Of a stretch of 64,000 bases of DNA, positions 37,921-53,131 are shown piece after piece. The notes beneath the pieces were generated by a model. That model worked only from the letters and a program-made list of their open reading frames with translations. It did no database searches and was not told the DNA's origin. How positions within the stretch are numbered: position 1 is the stretch's first letter; every line of letters begins with the position of its first letter. The translations under genes and the position numbers were made by a program. Origin of the DNA: Oscillospiraceae bacterium (lineage in GTDB: Bacteria; Bacillota; Clostridia; Oscillospirales; Oscillospiraceae); NCBI GenBank assembly GCA_017434755.1, contig JAFRER010000008.1:30115-94114 (forward strand), written 5' to 3'.

Positions 37921-38475
37921 GTGTCTGCCGGAAATGTTCCCGCGGGCGGCCGGTCAAAGACCTTTGCGCTCGCTTTCGGGGCTCTGATGGCGGCCGCAGG
38001 GACGGCCGTGATGCTGCTGGGCGCCCTCGTGCCCGTGTTCACTTACTGTTCCCCGCTTCTGGCCTCTCTGTTCCTGCTGCCGGTCATCGACATCTGCGGC
38101 AGGAGGAATGCCGTCCTTGTCTGGGTCGTTACGTCCGTTCTCGTGCTGCTCATCGGCGCGGACAAGGAAGCCGCCTTCTTTTACCTGTTCTTCGGCTGGT
38201 ACCCCGTCGCGAAGGACGGGCTCGACCGGATCGGCTCAAAGGCACTGCGCTTCCTGCTGAAGCTCCTCTTGTTCTCCACCGCTGCGGCTGCCATGTATGC
38301 GCTCACCTGCTATGTCCTCGGCATTGAGGAGATCATCGAGACATTTTCGGAGAGCTGGTGGGTGAATGCCCTGTTCCTTGCGGCAATCGTCTTCTGCATG
38401 ATGCTCTTCGATGCCGCGCTGACGAGGCTTGCGCCTCGTATTCAAAGACTCACGGAAAAGATCATAAAGCGCTGA
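37921..38475 (+). CDS. Integral membrane protein of unknown function
   Basis: A GTG start with GGAG 6 nt before it. The 184-aa product has about six hydrophobic segments, an FLLPVIDICGRRNAVLVW loop, a FGWYPVAKDGLDRI loop, and a basic C-terminus. I do not recognise a family. Its coupling to the DUF4230 gene (3-nt gap) suggests the two act together in the membrane. Confidence 0.7.
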   Translation: MSAGNVPAGGRSKTFALAFGALMAAAGTAVMLLGALVPVFTYCSPLLASLFLLPVIDICGRRNAVLVWVVTSVLVLLIGADKEAAFFYLFFGWYPVAKDGLDRIGSKALRFLLKLLLFSTAAAAMYALTCYVLGIEEIIETFSESWWVNALFLAAIVFCMMLFDAALTRLAPRIQRLTEKIIKR

Positions 38476-38538: not shown

Positions 38539-39249
38539 TCAGCCGTAGGTCAGTCCCATGCGGAACACCTGCCGCTCGCCCTCGCCCAGAATGTAATATA
38601 CGCCGTCTTTGCAGCCCCAGTTTACGGTGAAGGTCTCGCCGAAGCGCGCCTCGTTAGAATACTCGATCTGTATGCCCTTGAGCGCCTTTCCTTCGGCGGC
38701 GGCCGGGATGCAGTCCTCCACAAGGTCGAAATAGTGGGCGTTGTTCATATGCCCGTTGATGTCCACATAGCTGTAGGGCACGGTGAACTGGCGGCTCTCC
38801 GTGCATTCCATCCTGCGCGGCGCGGAAGGCAGGGCGATCTCCTCCCCGGTGACAACGCCATCGACCACGACGCCGTATTTCTCCGGAAAGATCATCTTTC
38901 TCGTGTTCTGGTCCACAAGCCCCCACATAGCGCTCGCCGAGAGCAGATGCTCTCCTGCCGCGGTCTCCATGCTGTAATAGCGCGTGAAGAGAAGGTGCAT
39001 GGTCTTCCCAGGCCAGGTCCGGAGGACGATCCGCTCGTCATACTCCGGCATGCGCGCGATCTCTGCCCTCTGGAGCAGCAGCACCCACAGCAGCCCCCGG
39101 TCAAGAGTCTTGTCCCGGCCCATGCCGAGCTCCTCGGTGTGGGCGATCGAAGCTTCCTGCAGCAGACGGAAAAGTTCGGAGGTGCGCAGTCTCCGGAACA
39201 TGTCCACGTCTCTGCTGCGGAGCAGCATTTCCCTGCTGTATACGCTCAT
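38539..39249 (-). CDS. Acyl-ACP thioesterase
   Basis: The ATG at 39249 overlaps the ACP stop codon. The 236-aa product is a double-hotdog acyl-ACP thioesterase: an N-terminal RSRDVDMFRRLRTSELFRLLQEAS segment (its core RTSELFRLLQEA), LLWVLLLQRAEI and W-P-G substrate wall, then VPYSYVDINGHMNNAHYFDL. The Asp/Asn/His pair in DINGHMNN forms the catalytic network in the FatA/FatB group. It releases free fatty acids from ACP. It is third in an acyl-ligase-ACP-thioesterase unit with overlapping genes. Confidence 0.9.
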   Translation of the reverse strand: MSVYSREMLLRSRDVDMFRRLRTSELFRLLQEASIAHTEELGMGRDKTLDRGLLWVLLLQRAEIARMPEYDERIVLRTWPGKTMHLLFTRYYSMETAAGEHLLSASAMWGLVDQNTRKMIFPEKYGVVVDGVVTGEEIALPSAPRRMECTESRQFTVPYSYVDINGHMNNAHYFDLVEDCIPAAAEGKALKGIQIEYSNEARFGETFTVNWGCKDGVYYILGEGERQVFRMGLTYG

Positions 39250-39494
39250 TTCGCCACGCGCTTCCAGATCGCGTCCACCACGTCGCCGAGAGTCTGCAGC
39301 TTCTGCCACTGGCGCTCGGGGATGCGCACGTCGAACATGGCCTCCAGCTTGCAGATCACAAGGACAAAGCCCATGGAATCAATGGCGGTCTCGGTGTTGA
39401 TGACGCTGTCCTCCTGAAGGTCTTCATCCCGCAGATCGGGGAAGCAGTCATAGATCACCTTTTTGGTGCTTTCGAGTATTTCCTGTCTTGTCAT
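39246..39494 (-). CDS. Acyl carrier protein
   Basis: An 82-aa carrier protein with the phosphopantetheine attachment Ser40 in TAIDSMGF and an acidic helix II. It differs from housekeeping AcpP (Met-Gly-Phe after the Ser instead of Leu-Asp), so it is a dedicated carrier. It overlaps the acyl ligase upstream and the thioesterase downstream by ATGA each, implying stoichiometric coupled translation. Confidence 0.9.
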   Translation of the reverse strand: MTRQEILESTKKVIYDCFPDLRDEDLQEDSVINTETAIDSMGFVLVICKLEAMFDVRIPERQWQKLQTLGDVVDAIWKRVAK

Positions 39495-40834
39495 GTATCC
39501 GCGCTCACTTTCTGCTGGAGTTCCCAGCGTTTTATTTTACCCGTGGCGGTCCTCGGCAGAGGTTCCGCCGTTACGATAATGTCCGTGATCTGCTGGCCGC
39601 GCGGCAGCTCGCGCATGAGCTCGCGCAGCTTCAGGGATATCGCATCGGCATCTCCCTCGCCGGAGAACACCAGCACCGGCCTGCCGTTCTTGAGTGTCAC
39701 GGCGATCTCCGTGCTGCCCAGCGCTTTCATGATGGGAGCCTCGTACTCGGGCAGAAAGATCTTCGTCCCGTCCGGCAGCACCAGCATGTCCTTTTTGCGC
39801 CCTGTGATGTGCAGTTTGCCGTCCCCGTCGAAGTATCCGAGGTCGCCTGTATAAAACACACCGTCCTTCAGGACCTCCGCAGTGTCACCGGGCATCTTGT
39901 AATAGCCCTGCATGATGCAGGTCGGCGCTTCGATGAGGATCTCACCGTCTTCCGCGATGGTGATGGTGTCGTCCGGGCAGACCTCCATGGCGAAGGGATC
40001 GCCCGAGACGGAGATGGCCACGCCTGAGCTGGTCTCGGTGAGTCCGTAGCCGAAGCTCACCCGCAGTCCCGCAGCGGCCGCGGCGCCCAGCAGAGCAGGC
40101 GGGCAGTCGCCCGCGCCTACGAGGATCAGCCTGAGCTCCGGATTGATGCAGCGCTGCTTGAGCAGGAAGCCCATCAGCAGCGGCACGACGGACACCGCCG
40201 TGGGCCGGTAGTGGCTGCAGTCGTCGAGATAGTGCCGTGCACCGCGCCCGAGGGCCACGCATGCGCCGCAGGAAAGGCCCCAGAGCAGGCCGCACACGAA
40301 GCCGAACACATGGCCCAGCGGCAGGATGCACAGGAGCGTGTCCTCCGGGGAGAGGGGCAGCTTCTCCGAGCCGTTCCAGGCGCTCTGGCAGAGGCTGTGG
40401 TCCGTGAGCACGACTGCCTTCGAGCGGGCGGTAGTGCCGGAGGTGAAGAAGAGGATCTTCCCTTTCCCATCGGAGACACCTCCCGTGAGGGCGCCCTCGA
40501 GCTCCTCGACCAGATCGATGTCGCCCCAGAGCGTGTCGATGTCCGTGTAACGGATCAGCATCGTCAGCATGCCTGTCTCAAGTGAGGCGTCGAGCATCAC
40601 CACCTGCAGACCCGCGAGGTTCGCCGCAAAGATCTCGACCACGCAGTCGAGGCTTCCGTCGGAGAGGATGCCCATGCAGGTCTTCCCCGTCTCCCGCAGT
40701 TCGGCGGCGCGTGTTTTCACCGCGTCATAAAGCGCGGAAAAGGAGAGCGTCCGGTTCTCATAATGAAGAGCGGGGGCGTCGGGCGTCTGCTCCGAAAAGT
40801 GCGAGAGCAGATGGGCGAAGCTGTCGAATCTCAA
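39491..40834 (-). CDS. AMP-forming acyl-CoA/acyl-ACP synthetase
   Basis: A TTG start at 40834 is supported by a near-perfect AAGGAGGTG; the longer frame is rejected. The 447-aa product has the ANL-superfamily motifs in order: FFTSGTTARSKAVVLT (AMP-binding), LPLGHVFGFVCGLLWG, FGYGLTETSSG, YTGDLGYFDGDGKLHITGRKKD, and a C-terminal LPRTATGKIKR Lys motif. It activates a carboxylic acid as acyl-AMP and, given the ACP gene immediately downstream, probably loads it on that carrier. Chain preference is unknown. Confidence 0.9.
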   Translation of the reverse strand: MRFDSFAHLLSHFSEQTPDAPALHYENRTLSFSALYDAVKTRAAELRETGKTCMGILSDGSLDCVVEIFAANLAGLQVVMLDASLETGMLTMLIRYTDIDTLWGDIDLVEELEGALTGGVSDGKGKILFFTSGTTARSKAVVLTDHSLCQSAWNGSEKLPLSPEDTLLCILPLGHVFGFVCGLLWGLSCGACVALGRGARHYLDDCSHYRPTAVSVVPLLMGFLLKQRCINPELRLILVGAGDCPPALLGAAAAAGLRVSFGYGLTETSSGVAISVSGDPFAMEVCPDDTITIAEDGEILIEAPTCIMQGYYKMPGDTAEVLKDGVFYTGDLGYFDGDGKLHITGRKKDMLVLPDGTKIFLPEYEAPIMKALGSTEIAVTLKNGRPVLVFSGEGDADAISLKLRELMRELPRGQQITDIIVTAEPLPRTATGKIKRWELQQKVSADT

Positions 40835-40874
40835 AGGAAAGCACCTCCTTACGGAATTCTGTGGCGCTGGTATC

Positions 40875-40883
40875 AATATAGCA
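40875..40883 (-). promoter_or_regulatory. Extended -10 promoter of the acyl-ligase operon
   Basis: On the minus strand, TGC-TATATT forms an extended -10 element without a good -35 box, about 40 nt before the TTG start. Confidence 0.5.
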
Positions 40884-40924
40884 TAAGCGGCATCGCAAGA
40901 AAAGAGCATTTTGCCTCTCGGAGT

Positions 40925-40942
40925 ACTTTACCCGAGTAAAGT
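40925..40942. promoter_or_regulatory. Palindrome between the divergent acyl-ligase and isomerase operons
   Basis: ACTTTAC-CCGA-GTAAAGT: perfect 7-bp arms with 4-bp spacer, about 50 bp upstream of the acyl-ligase -10 and 60 bp upstream of the isomerase -10. Placement suits one repressor or activator controlling both operons. Confidence 0.5.
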
Positions 40943-41001
40943 TGTATAAATTTTGTCGAATGGAACAGAGAAAAGATAGTGATTTTTACAAGAATATGTT
41001 A

Positions 41002-41007
41002 TATAAT
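41002..41007 (+). promoter_or_regulatory. -10 element of the isomerase operon
   Basis: TATAAT with no recognisable -35 at 16-18 bp, which fits an activator-dependent promoter. The distance to the ATG at 41068 is about 60 nt. Confidence 0.4.
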
Positions 41008-41067
41008 ATCCTTTAATCTGTGCATATTAAGTAAGCAGAAAATTAAATAATTATATTGGAGGAAGAC

Positions 41068-42456
41068 ATGGACAAAAACATTCGCATCGCCATTATCGGC
41101 GGCGGCCCTGCCGGACTGAGCGCGGGCATGTATCTCGAGCAGAAAGGCTACGAGAACTATGTGATCTTCGAGCGTCAGGACCGCGTCGGCGGCAAGTGCT
41201 GGTCTCCGCACTATAACGGCAGACGCTATGAGATGGGCGCCATCATGGGCGTTCCGTCCTACTACGCCGTTGAAGACGTGGAGAAATTCTGCGGCATCAC
41301 CCACGACGGCCCCAAACTCAACCGTAACTACAAGAGTTCCACCGGTGAGGTCATCGAGCCCTTCGCAAGGACCCTCGCCAACATCATCAGGAACCCCTGG
41401 ATGCTGAAGATGAAAAAGCAGCTCAAGAAGTTCGGCGAGCTGCTCGAGACCAAGTACAAAGGCTACGATGTCAACGGTCACCGCGGCGTTGCGGAAGGCC
41501 GCTACGACGGCTATGCCGTCACCCCCGGCCGTGAGAAGATCGAAGGCGAGAACCCCAACCTCAAGGATCTGGCGCTGCCCTTCTCCGAGTTCTGCAAAAA
41601 GAACGGCGTCGAGCTCGTCCAGAAGATCTGGATCGGACCCTTCACCTCTTTCGGCTACGGCTACTTTGACGAGATCCCCGCAGGCTACGTCCTCAAGTAC
41701 CTCGATTATCAGACCTGCATGAACTTCGTCAAGGTCAACCTCTGGACCTGGGAGCAGGGCACCCAGTACATCTGGGAGCAGCTCAACGACCACATCAAAC
41801 ACCCCGCTCGCCTCAACAGCACCATCGAGAAGGTCGAGCGCAAGGACGGCAAGGTGTTCATCACCGTCAACGGTGAGGTCGAGGAGTTCGACAAGGTCAT
41901 CGTCACCGCTCCTCTGCACATCCCCGGCACCCGTGCCGACGGACAGAAGGGCATGGACGAGTATTTCGACGTGCGCGACGACGAGAAGGAGCTCTTTTCC
42001 AAGATCGATTACGAGCGCTACGACGTGCAGGCCGTCCTCACAAAGCCCGAGGATCACCCCGAGATCTCCTACTATGTCTTTGACAACATGGTTCCCGAGA
42101 AGCTCGGCCACCTGATGGTCTACTATCGCCGCTGGAAGGATCAGATCGACCAGGTCATCACCACCTACGCTCTCCGCAAGCACAAGAACATGGACGAGAT
42201 CCCCTATGAGAAGTGCCGCGAGATGGTGCAGGAAGACCTCAAGATCATGAAGAACCCGGCTGCCGAAGTCATCAACGAGTGGTCCGTGTACTACTTCCCC
42301 CATGTCTTCTCCGATGACTATGCCGCCGGCTGGTACGACAAAGTCGAGGCCATGCAGGGCAAGTACGACACCTACTATGCCGGCGAGGTCATGAGCTTCG
42401 GCGACATGGACGAGACCGCCGAATATTCCCGCGAGCTCGTGGAGCGCTTCTTCTGA
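41068..42456 (+). CDS. FAD-dependent polyunsaturated fatty acid isomerase (PAI-like)
   Basis: The ATG at 41068 follows GGAGGAAG. The 462-aa flavoprotein opens with IAIIGGGPAGLSAGMYLEQKG, then GGKCWSP and GRRYEMGAIMGVPSYYA (about residues 51-67). It later has FGYGYFDEIPAGYVLKYLDY and a C-terminal YYAGEVMSFGDMDE. From memory, these blocks match the linoleate isomerase PAI of Cutibacterium (Propionibacterium) acnes almost position by position. That enzyme converts linoleic acid to trans-10,cis-12 conjugated linoleic acid by hydride shuttling on FAD without net redox change. Codons are strongly C-ending, suggesting high expression. It is first of three genes with a saturase-like flavoprotein and a 2Fe-2S reductase. 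Product geometry cannot be predicted. Confidence 0.85.
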   Translation: MDKNIRIAIIGGGPAGLSAGMYLEQKGYENYVIFERQDRVGGKCWSPHYNGRRYEMGAIMGVPSYYAVEDVEKFCGITHDGPKLNRNYKSSTGEVIEPFARTLANIIRNPWMLKMKKQLKKFGELLETKYKGYDVNGHRGVAEGRYDGYAVTPGREKIEGENPNLKDLALPFSEFCKKNGVELVQKIWIGPFTSFGYGYFDEIPAGYVLKYLDYQTCMNFVKVNLWTWEQGTQYIWEQLNDHIKHPARLNSTIEKVERKDGKVFITVNGEVEEFDKVIVTAPLHIPGTRADGQKGMDEYFDVRDDEKELFSKIDYERYDVQAVLTKPEDHPEISYYVFDNMVPEKLGHLMVYYRRWKDQIDQVITTYALRKHKNMDEIPYEKCREMVQEDLKIMKNPAAEVINEWSVYYFPHVFSDDYAAGWYDKVEAMQGKYDTYYAGEVMSFGDMDETAEYSRELVERFF

Positions 42457-42472
42457 TAATACTTATTCCGGG

Positions 42473-42505
42473 CAGGGCCGGTCGCGCAAGGCCGACCCTG
42501 TTCTT
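42473..42505 (+). other. Intercistronic hairpin after the isomerase gene
   Basis: CAGGGCCGG...CCGACCCTG (one mismatch) followed by TTCTTTTG. It could attenuate or stabilise the upstream message, which would make the isomerase more abundant than the two downstream enzymes. Confidence 0.4.
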
Positions 42506-42521
42506 TTGAAAGGAAAGACCT

Positions 42522-44078
42522 ATGAAATTCTATAAAGACCATTATGACGTAGTCATCATAGGCGGAGCGCTGGCGGGAATGTCCGCGTGCCTGCAGCTGC
42601 AGGCATGGGGCATCAAGGATATCCTGATCCTTGAGAAGCACAACATGCCCGGCGGCCTTGCCACCGACTTCGTCCGCAACGGGCACGAGATCGAGGCAAC
42701 CCTCCACGAGATGATGTCCATCGGCCGCCCCGGCAAGCGCCTAAAGGTCGGCCAGTTCTTCGAGGACATGGGCGTCGACGTCGACTGGCTGCCGGTCAAC
42801 GAGTGCTACCGCGTCGCCCTGCCGAACTCCGGCATCGACAAGATCCTCCACCACGACTATGACGACAGCTACACCACCGTCGCCAAGGAGATCGACGAGG
42901 AGTGTCCCGGCACCTACGAGAAGGTGCACGAGCTCATGCTCCTGTGCCGCCGCGTATACGACAGCATGAACATTCTCTCCGTCACCCCGATGAGCAAGGT
43001 CCAGATGCTCATGAAGCACCCCGACTTCGTCAAGACCGTCGGCTACAGCGCCACCGAAGTCATCAACACCTTCGATCTGCCGAAGAAGGCCGTCGAGATG
43101 CTCACCCCGTACTGGATCTACGTGGGCAACCGGATGGACGATCTGCCCTTCACGATCTACGCCTTCCTCATGGCCGACTACTTCACCGGCTCCTATGTCT
43201 GCCGCGGCTTCAGCCACGAGATGAGCATGAAGCTCCAGGCCAAGTGCGAGGAAAACGGCGCCCAGTACGAGTTCAACCAGGAAGTGGAGAAGATCCTCGT
43301 CAAGGACAACAAGGTTTACGGCGTACGTACCGCCCGCGGCGACGAGATCCACTGCGACTACGTCATCTCCGGCGCCTACCCCAACCGGGTATACACCCAG
43401 ATGATCGAGCCGCTCAGCGAGGTCCCCGAAGGCGCGATCAGGATGATCAACAACCGCAAACTCTCGGTGGTCCCCGTGTCCGTGATCATGCTTATCGAGG
43501 GCACCCCGGAGGAAAACGGCATCATCAACTACTCCACCTTCTCCGGCACCACGATGGATACCAACAAGATCTGGGAGAACTACTCCAACCTCACCGAGCC
43601 CTATAACTACATCACCACCATCTGCCTCAACTACGCCAACCCGACCCTGCCCAAGGACATCACCCAGCTTTCGATCACGGCCCTCGTCCCCTCAAAGCCC
43701 TTCGAGAGCGTCACCGAGGACGAGTACTTCGATCTCAAGCGCCGCCTTGCAAGTGAGATGATCGAGGAGTGCATCAAGATCACCAAGGTCGACTTCCGCC
43801 CGCGGATCACCGAGATCGAAGTCACCACGCCCATGACCGTCTCCCACTATGTGGGCGCGTGGAAGGGCAACATCTACGGATATCTCCACTCCCTCGAGGA
43901 CCACGCCGTGGCGAGACTGCAGATGAAGGAGAAGGATCACTTCATTGAGGGTCTTGAGTTTGCCGGCGCCCACGGCATGAGCGGCGACGGCATGGGCCCG
44001 CAGATCACCAACGGCCGCGCGGCCGCCAAGGCAGTGAAGGAAGACATCGAAAAGAAAAAGGAGGCTGCCGGCAAATGA
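42522..44078 (+). CDS. RetSat/CrtI-type FAD-dependent oxidoreductase
   Basis: A 518-aa flavoprotein with the N-terminal FAD fold DVVIIGGALAGMSACLQLQAWG, then NMPGGLATDFVRNGHEIEA. The overall plan follows the phytoene-desaturase/retinol-saturase family, ending with GLEFAGAHGMSGDGMGPQITNG (quoted by its core HGMSGDGMGPQITNG), the C-terminal FAD segment. Family members either desaturate polyenes or, as RetSat, saturate a double bond. Next to a fatty acid isomerase and a reductase, saturation of conjugated fatty acids is the best inference. It overlaps the reductase gene by ATGA. C-ending codons dominate, as in the neighbours. Confidence 0.8.
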   Translation: MKFYKDHYDVVIIGGALAGMSACLQLQAWGIKDILILEKHNMPGGLATDFVRNGHEIEATLHEMMSIGRPGKRLKVGQFFEDMGVDVDWLPVNECYRVALPNSGIDKILHHDYDDSYTTVAKEIDEECPGTYEKVHELMLLCRRVYDSMNILSVTPMSKVQMLMKHPDFVKTVGYSATEVINTFDLPKKAVEMLTPYWIYVGNRMDDLPFTIYAFLMADYFTGSYVCRGFSHEMSMKLQAKCEENGAQYEFNQEVEKILVKDNKVYGVRTARGDEIHCDYVISGAYPNRVYTQMIEPLSEVPEGAIRMINNRKLSVVPVSVIMLIEGTPEENGIINYSTFSGTTMDTNKIWENYSNLTEPYNYITTICLNYANPTLPKDITQLSITALVPSKPFESVTEDEYFDLKRRLASEMIEECIKITKVDFRPRITEIEVTTPMTVSHYVGAWKGNIYGYLHSLEDHAVARLQMKEKDHFIEGLEFAGAHGMSGDGMGPQITNGRAAAKAVKEDIEKKKEAAGK

Positions 44079-45265
44079 GCATCAAAGTAAAAGGCTTTCT
44101 GAAAGACGTTGGAGGAGCCTCCAGAGTCACAAAGATGAGAGCGGAGAATTTCGCAAAGGGTTCTCCCGTCCCCGATCCCAAGGATCCCATCCGTGAGGTC
44201 GCCGATAAGCTCCACCCGAAACACATGGTGTTCAAGGTGGTCGACATCCGTCAGGCCTCCCCGACCTCCCGCGTGTTCCGCTTTGAGAGCGCCGACGGCC
44301 ACATCCCGCCCTTCCAGAGCGGCCAGTACGTCAACTTCCGCCTGAAGATCGGCGAGAGCGTCCTCTCCCGCCCCTACACCATCTCCTCCGCCCCGTACGA
44401 GGCCAGAGGCGAGCACCCCTTCTTTGAGATCACCGTGCGCCGCAACGTTCCCTATCTTGTTCCCGACTACCTCTTTGAGAACGTGAAGGTCGGCGACGAG
44501 CTCGAGGGCGCGCTGCCCTTCGGCTTCTTCTACTGGGAGCCCCTGCGCGACTCGAAGGAGATCGTCGCGCTGGCCGGCGGTTCGGGCATTACCCCGTTCC
44601 ACTCTATGGCCAAAGAGATCGTGAACGGCAAGATGAAGGGCTGCAAGCTCACCATCCTCTACGGCTCTGTCAAAGCCAACGACATCGTCCTCAAAGAGGA
44701 GCTTGCCAAGCTCGAAGCGCAGAGCCTTGACATCAAGGTGGTCCACGTCCTCTCCGACGAGCCCGACTGGGACGGCGAGAAGGGCTTCATCACCCGCGAG
44801 ATCATCGAGAAGTACTCCACGCCCGACTGCACCTACATGTTCTGCGGGCCTCTCGCCATGTTCACCTTCGTCAAGAAGGCGCTCGACGGCATGGGCGTCA
44901 CGGAGCGCCGTTTCCGCCACGATGTGGTGAACAACCCGGCCGACGTCTCCACCCTGCCCGGCTATCCCAAGGGCACCGAGACCAAGACCTTCAAGATCAC
45001 CGTCATCCGCGGCATCCATGAGGATGTCATCGACGCCGCTGCCTCCGAGCCCGTGGCGGTCGCCCTCGAGCGTGCCGGCATCGCCATCGACACCCACTGC
45101 CGCAACGGCGAATGCGGCTTCTGCCGCAGCCACCTGCTGGAAGGCGATATCTTCGTCTCCCCCATCGGCGACGGCAGACGTGTGATGGACAAGGAGATGG
45201 GCTGGTTCCATGCCTGCTCCTCCTGGCCCCTCACCGATCTCAAGATCAAGATCCCCATCATGTAA
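44075..45265 (+). CDS. NAD(P)H-dependent flavin and 2Fe-2S reductase
   Basis: A 396-aa phthalate-dioxygenase-reductase/oxygenase-reductase-like protein adapted to an anaerobe. Residues about 50-155 form the flavin-binding barrel (RPYTISSAP, 99-107). Residues 162-285 form the NAD(P) domain (GGSGITP, 168-174; CGPLAMFTFV). A C-terminal plant-type ferredoxin domain has ligands Cys342, Cys347, Cys350 and Cys381 (CRNGECGFC). It would carry electrons from NAD(P)H through flavin and the cluster to a partner, most simply the flavoprotein encoded upstream. AAGGAGG lies before the ATG inside the upstream gene. Confidence 0.9.
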   Translation: MSIKVKGFLKDVGGASRVTKMRAENFAKGSPVPDPKDPIREVADKLHPKHMVFKVVDIRQASPTSRVFRFESADGHIPPFQSGQYVNFRLKIGESVLSRPYTISSAPYEARGEHPFFEITVRRNVPYLVPDYLFENVKVGDELEGALPFGFFYWEPLRDSKEIVALAGGSGITPFHSMAKEIVNGKMKGCKLTILYGSVKANDIVLKEELAKLEAQSLDIKVVHVLSDEPDWDGEKGFITREIIEKYSTPDCTYMFCGPLAMFTFVKKALDGMGVTERRFRHDVVNNPADVSTLPGYPKGTETKTFKITVIRGIHEDVIDAAASEPVAVALERAGIAIDTHCRNGECGFCRSHLLEGDIFVSPIGDGRRVMDKEMGWFHACSSWPLTDLKIKIPIM

Positions 45266-45281: not shown

Positions 45282-45313
45282 GACCCGTTCCGAACCGGAA
45301 CGGGTCTTTTTTT
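45282..45313. terminator. Bidirectional terminator after the isomerase operon
   Basis: A 10-bp stem GACCCGTTCC/GGAACGGGTC, GAACC loop and T-run. It is nearly identical to the terminator at 57731-57759. Confidence 0.9.
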
Positions 45314-46650: not shown

Positions 46651-48177
46651 ATGAAACTGCCCGGAAGTCTCGTAAAGTCCCCGGAAGTCACGAAAAAGGA
46701 AAAGTGGCTGGGCTATCTGCTCGGTCCCGCCGGCGCGCTGCTGCTCAATGCGGTGCTGGCCACTTACCTGAACGTCTATTATACGGACGTTCTCAACCTC
46801 ACGCCGCTGTGGGGAGGCCTGTTCCTCACCGTGTTCCCGATCGTGTCCAAGATCATCGACGCGATCACGAACATCATCATGGGGCAGGTCATCGACCGTA
46901 CCAGGACGAAGGAAGGCAAAGCAAGACCCTGGCTGCTCCTTTCGGCCGTGCTGGTCCCGGTGACCGGCATCCTGCTCTTCACCGTTCCCGAGGGGAACGA
47001 CACCGTGAAGGCCCTGTGGGTGATGATCTCCTACAACCTCTTCTATTCCTTCGCTTACACCATCTTCAACATGAGCCACAACCTGATGGTGCCCCTGTCC
47101 ACCCGCGACGGCACGGCCCGCGGCGGGCTCTCGGTCTTCAACCAGATCACCACCATCATGATGAGCGGCATCCTCGTTGCGCTGGTATTCCCGATGGTTA
47201 TCATGCCGGCCATCGGCGTGGACAAGTCCAAGTGGATCACGCTGATGTGCATCCTTTCCATCATCGCCTTGCCGCTGACGCTGATGGAGTACTTCTTCAC
47301 CAAGGAGCGTGTGACGGAGGAAAAGGCGGATGAGGCGGACAACGGACTGAGCTTCGGAGCACAGCTCAAACTGCTCTTTTCAGACAAGTACATGGTGCTC
47401 ATGTATGTTTACTTCCTTGTATACACTATAGGCGTGACGCTGAAAAACCTCGGGCTTGTATACTACTGCAACTATGTCCTCGGCACCTACAACGACGGCA
47501 TCACCCAGATGCTGGTCTCCGTGATCGGCGGCATCCCGATGGGCATCGGCATATTCGCCGTATGGCCGCTGGCAAAGAGGTTCGGCAAGCGCAATGTCAC
47601 CATGATCGGCTTTGTCCTCTATGCGCTGGGTTCGCTGATCTGCTGGATCTTCTCACGGAATCTCGTGATCGTGCTCATCGGTCAGTTCATCAAGAACATC
47701 GGCGGTCTGCCTTGTGCCTACGTGTTCATGGCTCTGTTCGCCGACTGTCTCGACCATCTCGAATGGAAGACGGATATGCGTATCGACGGTGCGGCCATGT
47801 CTATCTATAATATCATTGCTGTGGCAATGGTCGGCATTATGACCGGCGTTTTCAACTGGATGCTGGCCAAGGCCCATTATATTGCTCCCTTTACTGCCAC
47901 GAGTGTGGCGGATGCCTCCGCTAAACTGGCCGAGAACGGCTGGGCGGCGCAGGTGGCGCTGGAGAACCTCAAGCCTGCCGCCGATGGTGTCCTGACGGTG
48001 GCTGTCGCGCAGCCGAACAGCGTCAATTGGGTGATCTCCTTTGCTTTTCTCGGTCTTGAAGTATTCACCGGTATCGCTCTGGTCGTCATCCTGTTCTTCC
48101 TGAATGTTGAGAAGAATCTTCCCGCGGAACAGGCGGAAATAAAGGCCCGCCACGAAGCAAAGGAGAAAGAAGTATGA
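46651..48177 (+). CDS. GPH-family glycoside:cation symporter
   Basis: A 508-aa carrier of the glycoside-pentoside-hexuronide family. It has twelve membrane helices, an N-terminal [24 protein letters not shown] helix region, the [15 protein letters not shown] motif at the end of helix 2 and ARPWLLLSA. These symporters bring glycosides in with Na+ or H+. GAAGGAGAG precedes the ATG. Its stop overlaps the GH3 start by ATGA, so substrate entry and hydrolysis are coupled. Confidence 0.93.
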
Positions 48178-50591
48178 ACGGATACGAAAGAGAACACAGC
48201 GAGTTTCTGCGCCGCTTCGGCGCGGAATGCGCAGTCCTTCTGAAGACCGACGGGACGTTTCCCCTTGAAGGCCCTTGCGATCTTGCCCTCTACGGCAGCG
48301 GCGCCCGCCGCACGATCAAGGGCGGCACAGGCTCCGGTGAAGTCAATTCCCGGTATTTCGTCACCGTCGAGGACGGGCTGGAGGCTGCGGGCTTCCGCAT
48401 CACGAGCAGGTCCTGGATGGATCACTACAGCCTGATATATGCAGAAGCGAAAAAGAACTTCATCCGCGAGCTGAAGCTTTCCGCCCTGAAGCGCGGGACG
48501 CTTGCAATCCTGGACAGCATGGGCGCCGTGATGCCGGAGCCGGAATACGAGCTTCCGCTGGACGCTGCCGGTGATACGGCCGTCTATGTCCTGTCGCGCA
48601 TCTCCGGCGAAGGCTCCGACCGCAGGCTTGTCCCCGGCGACATCCTGCTCACGGAGACCGAAAAGCGGGATATCCTGACGCTCAACAAGACATACAAGAA
48701 TTTCCTGCTGGTACTGAATGTGGGCGGCCCGGTCGATCTCTCACCACTCACGGAAGTCGGAAACATCCTGCTGCTCAGCCAGCTAGGCGCAGAGACAGGG
48801 AGCATCCTAGCAGACATCATCCTCGACAGAAGCACGCCCTCCGGCAAACTGACCACCACCTGGAGCGCCTGGGAGGACTATCCGGCGGTCGGACAGTTCG
48901 GCGAAAAGGAAGACACGCGCTATAATGAAGGCGTCTATGTCGGCTACCGTTATTTCGACAGCGTGGGCAAAGAGCCGCTGTTCTCTTTCGGCTTCGGTCT
49001 GAGCTATACGGACTTCGCACTTTCTGTCGGCGAGGTTGCGGAGGAAAATGGCAGGATCAGCCTCGGCGTTTCCGTAAAGAATACCGGGGAGCGCAGGGGC
49101 AAAGAGGTCGCGCAACTCTATGTCTCCGCTCCGCAGGGCCGGCTGGACAAGCCGTATCAGGTGCTGGCGGCCTTTGAAAAAACAGAGGAACTGCAGCCGG
49201 GTGAAGAGCAGGAACTGTCTCTCACCTTCGGCCTGCGGGATCTCGCTTCCTATGACGCCGAACGCGCCGCGTGGATCCTCGAGGCGGGCGACTATGTGCT
49301 GCGGATCGGGACCTCGAGCCGTGACACGAAAGCGGCTGCGATCGTCCGTTTGAACGCTGAGGCGATTGTGAAGCAGGTAAAGAACTGCCTCGGAGAACCG
49401 GATTTCACCGATTGGAAGCCGGACAGACAAAGCGAAGAAACGCCGTCCGATCTTCCCGTCCTTTCACTCGATGTCACGGCATTTCAAACGGAGACCGTGG
49501 ACTATTCGCTTTCCCATGAGATCGATCCCGTCACAGAGTCCCTGAGCGATGAGGAGCTCATCCTGATGAATATCGGCGCCTTCAAACGGAAGGGCCAGAC
49601 GAGCGTGATCGGCGAGGCCTCGGCAAGCGTTGCCGGTGCCGCCGGAGAGACTGTAAGCCTTCCTGATAAGAACATTCCCGCGATGGTGATGGCGGACGGG
49701 CCTGCCGGCCTGCGTCTGAGCCGTCAGTATACGAAAGATGAGAAGGGGATCCACGCTGTCGGCGGAGGCATGCCGGAGAGCATCATGGAACTGATGCCCG
49801 CGCCCGCCGCGTTCGTGATGAAGCTCATGGAAAGAAACGCCAAGCCGGAAGGCGAGGTCTTTGAGCAAAACTGCAGTGCCATCCCCATCGGCACCGCCAT
49901 CGCGCAGAGCTGGAACATTGGCTTTGCCGAGCGCTGCGGCGATATTGTCGGCGACGAGATGGAGCGCTTCGGCGTAAACCTCTGGCTCGCTCCGGCGCTC
50001 AATATCCACCGCGACATCCGCTGCGGCCGCAACTTCGAGTATTTCTCCGAGGATCCGCTGATCTCCGGAAAGTTCGCCGCCGCCATCACGCGCGGTGTGC
50101 AGAAGCACCCCGGCCGCGGAACGACGGTGAAGCACTTTGCGGCCAACAATCAGGAGACCAACCGCTACAGCAGCAACAGTCAGGTGAGCGAGCGCGCGAT
50201 GCGTGAGATCTACCTGCGCGGCTTCGGGATAGCCGTCCGGGAGAGTCAGCCGCATGCGCTTATGACCTCGTATAACCTGCTCAACGGCATACACACCTGC
50301 GAGCGGCGCGACCTGATCGAGGATATCCTGCGTGCCGAATTCGGCTTTGAGGGCATTGTGATGACCGACTGGATCATCGGAGCCATGTACGCGGGGAAAC
50401 GGAAATATCCCGCCCCCGATGCCGCAAGGACCGCCGCCGCGGGAAACGACATCACCATGCCCGGCGGACCAGCCGACTTCAAGGCTCTGCTGAAAGGACT
50501 GAAAGAAGGTACCGTGACCCGCAGGCAGCTGGAGATCAACGCAGCGCGCATCCTACGGATGGCGAAGAAGCTGACGGAGGATAAAGCATGA
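48174..50591 (+). CDS. Circularly permuted GH3 beta-glycosidase
   Basis: An 805-aa GH3 enzyme whose domains run in permuted order. The (alpha/beta)6 GH3 C-domain is at about 1-260 ([28 protein letters not shown]). An FN3-like domain (about 275-370) and the catalytic TIM barrel (about 440-805) follow. The barrel has [24 protein letters not shown] and the nucleophile Asp near residue 732 in VMTDW. The permuted layout is known among Ruminococcus-type beta-glucosidases. No signal peptide is present, so it works on imported glycosides. It overlaps both neighbours by ATGA. Confidence 0.93.
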
Positions 50592-53131
50592 AAGCTGTAA
50601 GACTTCGTACAGAATACCTGTTCGATCCCGTTGGGATGGATATCATAAAGCCTCGCCTCATGTGGAACTGCGAGGGCGGCGTCAAGCAGACGGCGTATCA
50701 GATCGTGTCCGAAAACTGGGACAGCAGCGTCATCGAGAGCGACGTGATGCAGGCCGAATACCCGCAGGCCCTCTCCTCCCGCGAGCGCGTGAACTGGAAA
50801 GTCCGCCTCTGGGACGAAAACGGCGAGCCCGGCGAGTGGAGCGAGGCCTTCTTCGAGATGGGCCTCCTTCAGCCTTCCGACTGGAAAGCCGGCTGGATCA
50901 CCGGGAATTATACGGTGAACAAAAAGGAGCGCTATCCCGTCGACTGCTTCCGCAAGACCTTCGCGGTGGAAAAGCCCGTAAAGAGCGCGCGGCTGTATAT
51001 CACGGCCTGTGGCCTGTATGAGGCAAGACTCGGCGGAAAGAAGATCGGCGACTTCGTGATGGCCCCCGGTTACACCGATTACCGCAAGCGCGTCCAGTAC
51101 CAGACCTACGATGTGACGGACATGTTGCGCGAGGGCGAAAACGAGCTGACCGTGCAGCTGGCAGACGGCTGGTACCGCGGTTCCTGCGGCGCCAACGGCA
51201 TCGTGAACCAGTACGGCACAGAGACAAAGCTGCTCGCGCAGATGGAGCTCCGCTATGAGGACGGCTCGGAGGAGACCGTCTGCACCGACGGAAGCTGGGA
51301 CTGGTCGAACGACGGCCCCATCCGCTTTGCCGACAACAAGGACGGCGAGACCGTCGAGGCCTTCCGCACGCCCATGTACCTTTCCAAGGCGAAGCCGACC
51401 GCGCACAAGGTGCGTCCCACGGCCTCCAACAACGTCCCGGTGCGGGAGCATGAACAGTTCAAACCCGTGCTCATCACTACGCCTTCCGGAAAAACGGTCC
51501 TTGACTTCGGCCAGAACATCCAGGGCTACGCCTCTTTCGCCCTGACGGCGCATGCCGGTCAGCGGATATTCCTGCGCTTCGGCGAGCTGCTGGACAAAGA
51601 AGGGGAATTCACCCAGAAGAACATCCAGCTTGCCAACCGCGGCAAGACAACGCCGCTGCAGCAGGTGGATTATACCTGCGCCGAGGGCTGGAACGAGTAT
51701 AAAACGACCTTCGCCGTGTTCGGCTTCCAGTATGTGCTGGTCGAGACCGACGTGCCCTTCCGGCCGGAGGACTTCACGGCCCATGCCGTCTATTCCGATC
51801 TGGAGCGGACCGGCTGGTTCAAAAGCTCCAATGAACTGCTGAACCGGTTCTTTGAGGCCACCGTCTGGTCGGCCAAGGGCAACCATCTGGACATCCCCAC
51901 TGACTGCCCCACCCGTGAGCGCCACGGTTGGACCGGCGACGCGCAGCTCTTCTTCACGAGCGCCGCGTATCTGTTCAACTTCGCCCCCTTTGCCCGCAAG
52001 TATCTGCACGATGTCTATGACTGGCAGAAAAAGAACGGCCGCCTGCCGCACATTGCGCCGGAGGGCGGTTCGGATTTCTACATGTGGACGATGAACGGCT
52101 CCGTCGGCTGGTCGGACGTGGGCGTGCTCATCCCCTGGCGCTATGCGGAGATCTTCGGGGACGAGGCCATCCTGCGCGAGTACTACGACGGCATGGTTAA
52201 ATACGCCCGTTTCATGGAGAAGCGCGTCGGCAAGACCACGCCGATCTTCTCCGAAAAAGTCAGGCTTTCCAAAGAGGCGCAGAAGTACTTTGTCAACATG
52301 GGCCAGAGCTACGGCGAATGGGCCGAGCCCGTGGATGTGGGCGGCGGCTTCCGCTGGCAGGATTTCGTCAATCCGCACCCTGAAGTTTCCACTGCTTATA
52401 CGGCTTACATCATGCGTCTGATGGCAGAGATCGCCGGAAAGCTCGGCCATATCGGGGATGCGAAGGAATTCGCCGGCTATGCCGAGGGCTGCACGAAGGC
52501 CTATCGGGAACTGGTCTCCGGCGGGACCTACTCATTGGATACCGACCGGCAGGCGCAGCTGGTCCGCCCGCTGTATATGGGCCTGCTGGACGAAGAGCAG
52601 ACCGCCTTTGCGAAAAAGCGGCTTATCGAGGCGTTGGAGCATTACGGCTGGCGCCTCGGAACGGGATTCCTCTCTACGCCGCTGATCCTTTACGTGCTGG
52701 CCTCCTATGACATCGAGGCGGCCTACCGGCTGCTGGAAAACGAGGAGATCCCCGGCTGGCTGTCCATGCCGAAAGCCGGCGCCACCACCATCTGGGAAAG
52801 CTGGGAAGGCCCCAACTCGCAGCATGGTGTGGCATCTCTCAACCACTATTCCAAGGGCGCTCTGGTGGAATGGCTGTTTTCCGTCATGTGCGGCATCCGT
52901 GTGGACGGCGTAAACCGCTTCGTCATCGCCCCGCAGCCCGGCGGAAGTTTCACGCATGCCGAGGCGGCCTATAACAGCGTTTACGGCATGGTCGGGAGCA
53001 AGTGGGAGAAACAGGACGGGAAGACCGTCTATACCATCGTTGTTCCCGCAAACTGCAGAGCGGAGATCCGCCTGCCCGGCGGCACATGGGAGACCGTGGA
53101 CGCGGGCGAGCATACATACACAGAGGAATAA
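50588..53131 (+). CDS. GH78 alpha-L-rhamnosidase
   Basis: An 847-aa GH78 enzyme. N-terminal beta-sandwich domains (VKSARLYITACGLYEARLGG; APGYTDYRKRVQYQTYDVT) precede the (alpha/alpha)6 barrel, which has the catalytic DCPTRERHGWTGD block at residues 439-451. TTIWESWEGPNSQHGVASLNHYS (its core WESWEGPNSQHG) is a late catalytic-site segment. No signal peptide is seen, so hydrolysis of rhamnosides is intracellular. It is coupled to the GH3 gene by ATGA; together they could strip rhamnose and then glucose from a rhamnoglucoside. Confidence 0.95.
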   Translation: MKAVRLRTEYLFDPVGMDIIKPRLMWNCEGGVKQTAYQIVSENWDSSVIESDVMQAEYPQALSSRERVNWKVRLWDENGEPGEWSEAFFEMGLLQPSDWKAGWITGNYTVNKKERYPVDCFRKTFAVEKPVKSARLYITACGLYEARLGGKKIGDFVMAPGYTDYRKRVQYQTYDVTDMLREGENELTVQLADGWYRGSCGANGIVNQYGTETKLLAQMELRYEDGSEETVCTDGSWDWSNDGPIRFADNKDGETVEAFRTPMYLSKAKPTAHKVRPTASNNVPVREHEQFKPVLITTPSGKTVLDFGQNIQGYASFALTAHAGQRIFLRFGELLDKEGEFTQKNIQLANRGKTTPLQQVDYTCAEGWNEYKTTFAVFGFQYVLVETDVPFRPEDFTAHAVYSDLERTGWFKSSNELLNRFFEATVWSAKGNHLDIPTDCPTRERHGWTGDAQLFFTSAAYLFNFAPFARKYLHDVYDWQKKNGRLPHIAPEGGSDFYMWTMNGSVGWSDVGVLIPWRYAEIFGDEAILREYYDGMVKYARFMEKRVGKTTPIFSEKVRLSKEAQKYFVNMGQSYGEWAEPVDVGGGFRWQDFVNPHPEVSTAYTAYIMRLMAEIAGKLGHIGDAKEFAGYAEGCTKAYRELVSGGTYSLDTDRQAQLVRPLYMGLLDEEQTAFAKKRLIEALEHYGWRLGTGFLSTPLILYVLASYDIEAAYRLLENEEIPGWLSMPKAGATTIWESWEGPNSQHGVASLNHYSKGALVEWLFSVMCGIRVDGVNRFVIAPQPGGSFTHAEAAYNSVYGMVGSKWEKQDGKTVYTIVVPANCRAEIRLPGGTWETVDAGEHTYTEE

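Follow-up and report, generated by a model that had tools for sequence, protein, structure and literature searches.

Which genes allow anaerobic gut bacteria to turn polyunsaturated fatty acids (PUFA) into trans and saturated fatty acids? The enzymes of rumen biohydrogenation have been under study since the 1960s. The process governs the trans and saturated fat of milk and meat, and trans-10,cis-12 conjugated linoleic acid (CLA) has been associated with low milk fat (PMC10019597). No linoleate isomerase gene turned up in the Butyrivibrio genomes that PMC6249431 examined, and the CLA reductase, although once sequenced, matched no family database searched in 2015 (PMC4478896). The question is raised by a six-gene locus of an Oscillospiraceae bacterium (assembly GCA_017434755.1), which lies in a 64,000-nucleotide stretch of contig JAFRER010000008.1 (positions 30,115 to 94,114; hereafter the window). 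Gene A encodes a PAI-family isomerase, B a flavoprotein and C a reductase, and divergent from them are genes for an acyl-AMP ligase, a dedicated acyl carrier protein (ACP) and an acyl-ACP thioesterase (TE) (Table 1). We think it probable that the six genes constitute a PUFA biohydrogenation module of anaerobic gut Clostridia. By homology A is near certain to be an isomerase, B and C are likely to form the predicted reductase, and a predicted acyl-ACP step is plausible.

The reference for the PAI of Cutibacterium (Propionibacterium) acnes is reportedly Liavonchanka 2006. In a phmmer search of PDB chains, A (462 amino acids, ATG at 41068, GGAGGAAG immediately 5') matched 2b9w with an E-value of 8e-134, 222 of 416 residues (53%) being identical over two aligned stretches. 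The second-best solved chain was an amine oxidase (E 8.7e-10, residues 3-59 only); since the 2b9w match is far above it, an amine oxidase identity was rejected. The A orthologue of L132, a complete six-gene module from another family, is closer still to 2b9w (265/415 identical, 64%). The two motifs on which the initial annotation had called A PAI-like, GRRYEMGAIMGVPSY (residues 51-65) and YAGEVMSFG (residues 437-445), are both present. The sequence of 2b9w is that of 2bab, which is named a PUFA isomerase of Propionibacterium acnes (PMC6162330), and PAI converts linoleate to trans-10,cis-12 CLA (PMC2885616). A retains the FAD motif of this enzyme; it differs in bearing insertions near residues 101-117 (small), 140-165 (about 22 residues) and 285-298 (about 10), and in belonging to a six-gene module. 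R86 and F220 of A align to R and F of 2b9w and are invariant in 82 of 82 sequences; we take them to correspond to R88 and F193, the substrate gate residues of PAI. The pair was rejected as a signature of the module's A, because it recurs in distant homologues of A: among eight of them, whose identities to A run from 105/401 to 134/413, R86 is present in 8/8 and F220 in 7/8.

B (518 amino acids) is a CrtI/amine-oxidase-type flavoprotein (PF01593, E 3.4e-13; PDB 4rep, E 4.6e-18 in a profile search), so that its first label, CrtI-type, holds at superfamily level. None of the NCBIfam models that it matched reached its cut-off: crtI_fam (TIGR02734) scored 92.4 bits where 238.1 is required, and B falls into no equivalog named as a saturase, desaturase or isomerase. 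The B matches shown included neither a sequence nor a model of RetSat; the known substrate bond of RetSat is part of a conjugated polyene rather than an isolated double bond, as the initial annotation had it. B shares the CrtI superfamily with CrtI, CRTISO, CrtD and retinol saturase, but adds to it a dedicated reductase partner and a near-invariant motif at residues 56-63, E-x-[ED]-x-[ST]-L-H-E, in which His62 is kept in 65/65 and Glu63 in 63/65 distinct paralogues. This motif is a candidate proton-relay site.

The partner, C (396 amino acids), has the flavin and 2Fe-2S domains first ascribed to it: Pfam finds FAD_binding_6, NAD_binding_1 and a C-terminal Fer2, and the four cluster cysteines (342, 347, 350 and 381) are invariant in 73/73 sequences. 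Its N-terminal stretch of about 50 amino acids lies outside the best solved-reductase match, 1krh, which begins at residue 55. The best equivalog was BenC (120.5 bits, under the cut-off of 430). C has the same FAD, NAD and 2Fe-2S domains as BenC-type oxygenase reductases; its neighbour, however, is B, and an oxygenase partner gene was not found among the six module genes.

The pairing of B with C extends far beyond the module. A panel of 119 relatives, 73 of them in the window's genus, contained 70 B paralogues of less than 40% identity; 45 stretches covering 51 of them were taken, and a C-like gene (33-42% identity) adjoins the paralogue in all 49 cases where the downstream sequence exceeds 1 kb. 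Likewise, in a class sample of 391 genomes a B-family match (E 1e-40) occurred in 16, and a C-like gene adjoins B at 20/20 loci, five of which are the window, two paralogues of its own genome (already covered in that paralogue set), and the copies of G042 and G251. At L213 and L223, where two B genes stand in tandem, C is placed between them and flanks B on the opposite side. Among 43 loci with all six genes intact, together with the window, pairwise identities of B and C correlate with r 0.96, those within ligase, ACP and TE with 0.86-0.92, and those across the three units with 0.31-0.53. At L055, L059 and L069 the A sequence shares 89-91% identity with that of the window, against 55% for B and 52-53% for C, as if B and C had been swapped as a pair. 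Judged from these patterns, B and C are obligate partners, and the proposal that C is the electron donor of B is strongly supported by the universal pairing and the identity correlation. Many genomes of the genus hold several copies of the B-C family, in diverse contexts; if this reading is true, the family would represent a C=C reductase class of anaerobes that is new.

Two other roles for the pair have to be weighed. B scored 74.1 bits against carot_isom (TIGR02730), not far below its crtI_fam score, and carotenoid isomerase-type enzymes need reduced FAD. Both points favour B being a reduced-flavin isomerase like the plant and cyanobacterial carotenoid isomerase, with C only keeping the FAD reduced and double bonds being shifted or flipped without net reduction. 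We regard this as improbable, as 74.1 bits is far under the equivalog cut-off of 586.9 and stoichiometric reduction accounts better for the finding that each B examined with room has its own NAD(P)H reductase next to it. An oxidative pair, that is, a desaturase yielding NAD(P)H, could draw on the named CrtI-type models weakly matched by B, which are mostly desaturases. It is very hard to credit: C resembles NAD(P)H-spending reductases, and for an anaerobe C-C bond oxidation with NAD+ as acceptor is uphill.

A B'-C' pair was seen in the window's own genome (L143:767-10703, contig C10 of G000), inside a beta-oxidation-like cluster. Pfam assigns to this cluster a thiolase, a 3-hydroxyacyl-CoA dehydrogenase/enoyl-CoA hydratase fusion, a GntR-FCD regulator, an acyl-CoA ligase and an enoyl-CoA hydratase; an acyl-CoA dehydrogenase was not found among the genes scanned there.

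The six genes travel together. One genome from each of 84,980 species was surveyed for A relatives; of the 385 stretches found, the 80 best became the loci analysed here. Where the contig has room, B follows A in 72/72 and C follows B in 68/68 of these. Because A groups with PAI and the triad is conserved, the two sequence-level objections that the initial annotation had itself raised, an A clustering with other flavoproteins and a scattered triad, both fall. That annotation had A, B and C in the right places and called them self-contained; it overlooked the divergent TE, ACP and ligase genes (38539-40834), which adjoin A in 60 of the 64 loci with room. The idea that the triad is a complete unit was rejected, as ligase, ACP and TE are conserved with it, and the word self-contained does not hold either, since these three are co-inherited with the triad and, in a minority of genomes, IsrA-like genes (described below) are linked to it as well. 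The four exceptions (L051, L106, L111 and L125) keep ligase, ACP and TE elsewhere in the genome: 7.4 kb off behind other genes at L051, elsewhere in the genome for L106 and L111, and probably linked at about 10 kb for L125 (G895), where the ligase sits on a contig equal in length to that of L125, past the end of the stretch taken. L106, L111 and L125 were therefore rejected as ligase-free cases. In L132 (G251) identities to the window are 53% for A, 56% for B, 54% for C, 45% for the ligase, 40% for ACP and 44% for TE. The flanking AraC and MFS genes of the window recur in 0/80 loci (more than 40% identity over half the length; 54 loci extend 3 kb past C) and the gene at 37921 in 2/80; it is thus the module that is conserved and not its neighbourhood.

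Co-inheritance is also visible at the level of genomes. Among the 119 relatives, A occurs in 48 and a ligase orthologue (E 1e-60) in 48; both are present in 46, A only in two (G406 and G438, where the A matches contain in-frame stops) and the ligase only in two (G446 and G450). Within the genus the A-ligase association has a Fisher p of 1.5e-14. Counting matches at 65% identity or more, A and B are both present in 42 genomes and discordant in 6 and 3. In G454 the two halves of the module are on different contigs, so linkage alone cannot explain the association. On these counts the ligase and isomerase A are co-inherited, even when unlinked. Decayed copies of the module were seen at L133 (G042), L148 (G406) and L154 (G438), where A is cut short or has in-frame stops and the ligase was not found; B and C are intact in G042.

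The signature motifs of a load-modify-release cassette are all present in the divergent half. The ligase (PF00501, E 1.8e-39, scored on 39491-40843) has the motif [TS]SGTT in 66/66 sequences, and its probable start, judged by eye from the sequence and its relatives, is a TTG after AAGGAGG. ACP matches NCBIfam acyl carrier protein models below cut-off and carries a phosphopantetheine serine, Ser40 in DSMG, that is invariant in 70/70. TE (PF01643, E 2.4e-21; PF20791; PDB 2own, an oleoyl-ACP thioesterase, E 2.8e-18) has the motif D-x-N-x-H-x-N in 56/56; an open reading frame reaching 39309 is over-extended, and the probable start is its residue 20. The ligase is thus predicted to charge ACP with a fatty acid. 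In-frame stops were flagged in 14/70 TE and 2/75 ligase genes, but broken genes were dismissed, as the stops fall at residues 9-16, in an over-extended start, or in the last 21 residues.

Acyl-ACP tailoring cassettes such as JamABC combine a ligase and an ACP with an O2-dependent desaturase. The likeness is that a ligase and a dedicated ACP adjoin a double-bond-modifying enzyme; the difference is that the module has an anaerobic flavoprotein pair and a thioesterase. It may be asked whether the six genes tailor an endogenous lipid or signal, with ligase, ACP and TE to hold a fatty acid on which A, B and C build an unusual unsaturation pattern. That ACP, ligase and TE co-evolve as a unit, and that the ligase is co-inherited with A, would agree with this. 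We consider it rather unlikely, given that a ketosynthase or elongation gene was not found among the six, that TE would release the free acid, and that the closest characterised relative of A uses added linoleic acid (PMC2885616).

The strongest competitor of the biohydrogenation reading comes from a second protein family. IsrA is a putative isoprene reductase of Acetobacterium wieringae, proposed to reduce an unfunctionalised conjugated diene with NADH, FAD and Fe-S centres, and its neighbourhoods contain HypA (0.73), HypB (0.56) and DUF5692 (0.40) (PMC10134865). In seven of the eight cases (L134 and L136-L141; not L135), the distant A homologue is followed, on its own strand, by the adjoining gene for an IsrA-like protein of about 900 amino acids. 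Around these seven pairs an HTH-like gene precedes A in 7/7, and HypB-like (5/7), DUF5692-like (6/7) and HypA-like (6/7) genes occur in varying order; the neighbours are named by resemblance, with Pfam confirmation for L136, where the large protein has Pyr_redox, Fer4_20 and paired Fer4 and the neighbours are HypA, CobW/HypB and DUF5692. L136:4381-11689 is an example of this recurrent HTH-PAI-like-IsrA-like stretch in distant Bacillota. No match to B, C, ligase, ACP or TE was found in the stretches of about 20 kb around the eight distant homologues. Five of the seven genomes have a single full-length IsrA-like gene, the one adjoining A; G558 and G596 have three each. The linked genes fit the description in PMC10134865 in length, NAD(P)H/FAD domain, paired 4Fe-4S and HypA/HypB/DUF5692 neighbours; membership with IsrA (VUZ27132.1) was judged on architecture and neighbours, and the genes reach no NCBIfam cut-off for such a family. 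The architecture of B-C differs from that of IsrA. The adjacency suggests that some members of the IsrA family act on fatty acids conjugated by the adjoining isomerase, which would connect fatty acids with a family proposed to reduce isoprene; the words 'isomerase', 'amine oxidase' and 'linoleic' are absent from the main text of PMC10134865.

IsrA-like genes also join the module itself. In 82 loci (the 80, L132 and L133) one lies at most 1.2 kb downstream of C in 17/64 and of TE in 4/60 cases with room, 21 loci in all, and one occurs anywhere in 30/82. The window has none at E 1e-10; its genome has seven matches, four of them about full length. One of these, G000:C4:110821-113418, is unlinked to the module, has HypA adjoining, and groups in a quick tree (SH-aLRT 99 for 12 rows) with IsrA-like genes of sister species that lie beside TE (L053, L076, L123) or near A (L070, L148, L154). 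In another sister species, L146:4314-12941 has the order B'-C'-IsrA-HypA-B''-C'', two B-C pairs flanking the IsrA-like gene.

A division of labour can therefore be imagined: conjugation falls to A, reduction of the diene to the monoene to an IsrA-type reductase, whether linked or encoded elsewhere, and a later step to B-C, for example at the isolated double bond that is left, met as acyl-ACP, unless B-C has a different substrate altogether. The adjacency of IsrA-like genes to A in seven of the eight distant genomes and to 21 module loci, the relative of the module-linked clade in the window's own genome, and the side-by-side B-C and IsrA-like genes of L146 speak for it. On the other side, B-C adjoins A in all of the 80 loci with room and IsrA only in a minority, and IsrA is itself a putative reductase (PMC10134865). 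We hold the division of labour to be doubtful, while giving it more weight than the other alternatives.

The following mechanism would account for the module as a biohydrogenation pathway. A would conjugate a free PUFA, a step that follows from its homology. C would pass hydride from NAD(P)H onto its FAD and then single electrons through the 2Fe-2S cluster to the FAD of B, a path suggested by the universal pairing of the two. Reduced B would then saturate a single C=C, either in the conjugated acid or in the intermediate that follows it; for this direction and substrate the grounds are that no oxygenase is among the six genes, that the niche is anaerobic and that an isomerase adjoins. Less firmly, and from co-inheritance only, the ligase may load the acid onto the dedicated ACP, so that B meets an acyl-ACP and TE frees the product in a load-modify-release cycle. 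One of the two reductions may, in some relatives, fall to an IsrA-type protein encoded beside the module. The benefit might be detoxified unsaturated acids and an electron sink.

Several points weigh against this reading. The substrate and regiochemistry of A rest on one characterised relative, and since R86 and F220 are kept in the distant homologues too, they are no proof of linoleate as substrate. In the distant families it is IsrA-like proteins and not B-C that accompany A, so the conjugated diene may be the substrate of IsrA rather than of B, and L135 (G525) encodes a PAI-like protein but lacks B-C as well as any full-length IsrA-like gene. Conversely, of the 16 class genomes in which B was matched, 13 gave no A match; B-C is thus found without A and is not specific to the module's pathway. 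In L133 (G042), a relative of L132, B and C persist, A is reduced to its 3' end and TE to a remnant, and a G042 ligase was not found at E 1e-30. G392 and G413 have A matches with in-frame stops, yet the ligase is present. Co-occurrence within one genus is confounded by relatedness, which inflates p values, and by incomplete metagenome-assembled genomes (MAGs). Finally, having both a ligase and a thioesterase would make for a futile cycle if the acid were not modified between the two.

How does the module compare with the routes already described? In Lactobacillus plantarum the hydratase route, for which Kishino 2013 is reportedly the reference, also ends in conjugated or saturated fatty acids. 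Its enzymes are CLA-HY, CLA-DH, CLA-DC and CLA-ER (PMC13365329), and none of their genes is in the module. A distinction from this route had been claimed at the outset, and it stands for the window's genome, where 0 MCRA/oleate hydratase genes (PF06100) were found; it does not hold throughout, as six of the 119 relatives have an oleate hydratase and two of these, G454 and G459, also carry A. The linoleate isomerase and CLA reductase of Butyrivibrio fibrisolvens are said to be treated in Kepler & Tove 1967, Hughes 1982 and Fukuda 2007. The overall pathway is the same, and in that species NADH is oxidised 1:1 with reduction (PMC4478896).

The record titles of 34 of the 80 loci name a ruminant gut sample, 34 bear RUG labels, which we take to mean rumen uncultured genomes, and 12 are silent (hand count). 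Occurring in such uncultured ruminant gut bacteria, the six-gene set is a strong candidate for part of the genes that turn plant oil into trans and saturated fat in the rumen. PAI-like genes in rumen MAGs were already known (7/228 MAGs; PMC10019597); the word 'reductase' is absent from the main text of that paper. In the literature searched, outside which lay preprints and most subscription journals, no description of the six-gene module, the B-C family or the PAI-IsrA clusters was found. A wider proposal is offered tentatively, as one that we do not yet favour: the module and the isomerase-IsrA clusters of other Bacillota may together be the missing genetic basis of anaerobic trans-10 PUFA biohydrogenation, with a PAI-family isomerase feeding two new reductase types, an obligate pair of CrtI-type flavoprotein and NAD(P)H-2Fe-2S reductase on a dedicated ACP, and IsrA-type reductases with nickel chaperones; uncultured ruminant Clostridia with the module would then be main rumen sources of trans-10 fatty acids. 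As the gene sets are concrete and expressible, the biohydrogenation question is directly testable.

Table 1. Features of the locus, in positions of the window
Feature	Position	Strand	Evidence or remark
TE, acyl-ACP thioesterase	38539..39252	-	PF01643, PF20791, PDB 2own
ACP, dedicated acyl carrier protein	39246..39494	-	PF00550
Acyl-AMP ligase	39491..40834	-	PF00501
Divergent promoter region	40835..41067	.	lies between ligase and A
A, PAI-family PUFA isomerase (FAD)	41068..42456	+	2b9w homology
B, CrtI-superfamily flavoprotein, predicted C=C reductase	42522..44078	+	PF01593, crtI_fam, PDB 4rep
C, NAD(P)H:FAD:2Fe-2S reductase, predicted electron donor of B	44075..45265	+	Pfam domains
Intrinsic terminator-like stem	45282..45306	.	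11 pairs, listed on - strand; T runs on both strands

As for the layout of the locus (Table 1), the ligase, ACP and TE genes overlap in order, upstream of and divergent from A. A, B and C are packed tightly, as first described, but with one overlap rather than several: B and C share 4 nt, and A and B are 65 nt apart. The C-ending codon bias noticed at first sight was recovered, the third-position C fraction being 0.57-0.60 in A, B and C and 0.40-0.46 in the five neighbour genes measured; this suggests strong expression of the three. The divergent promoter contains a perfect 7-bp inverted repeat with a 4-nt spacer (40925-40942). A conserved operator between A and the ligase was rejected, as TTTAC-N4-GTAAA occurs in 1/75 intergenic regions, the window's own only. 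The terminator-like stem sits between C and a convergent AraC-type gene (HTH_18). Directly 3' of C in L132 (92-1060) there is a TetR-type regulator, partly N-masked. Farther along the window, at 46651-53131, an MFS sugar transporter gene (Pfam MFS_2) is followed by two large open reading frames, which we presume to resemble glycoside hydrolases, GH3- and rhamnosidase-like.

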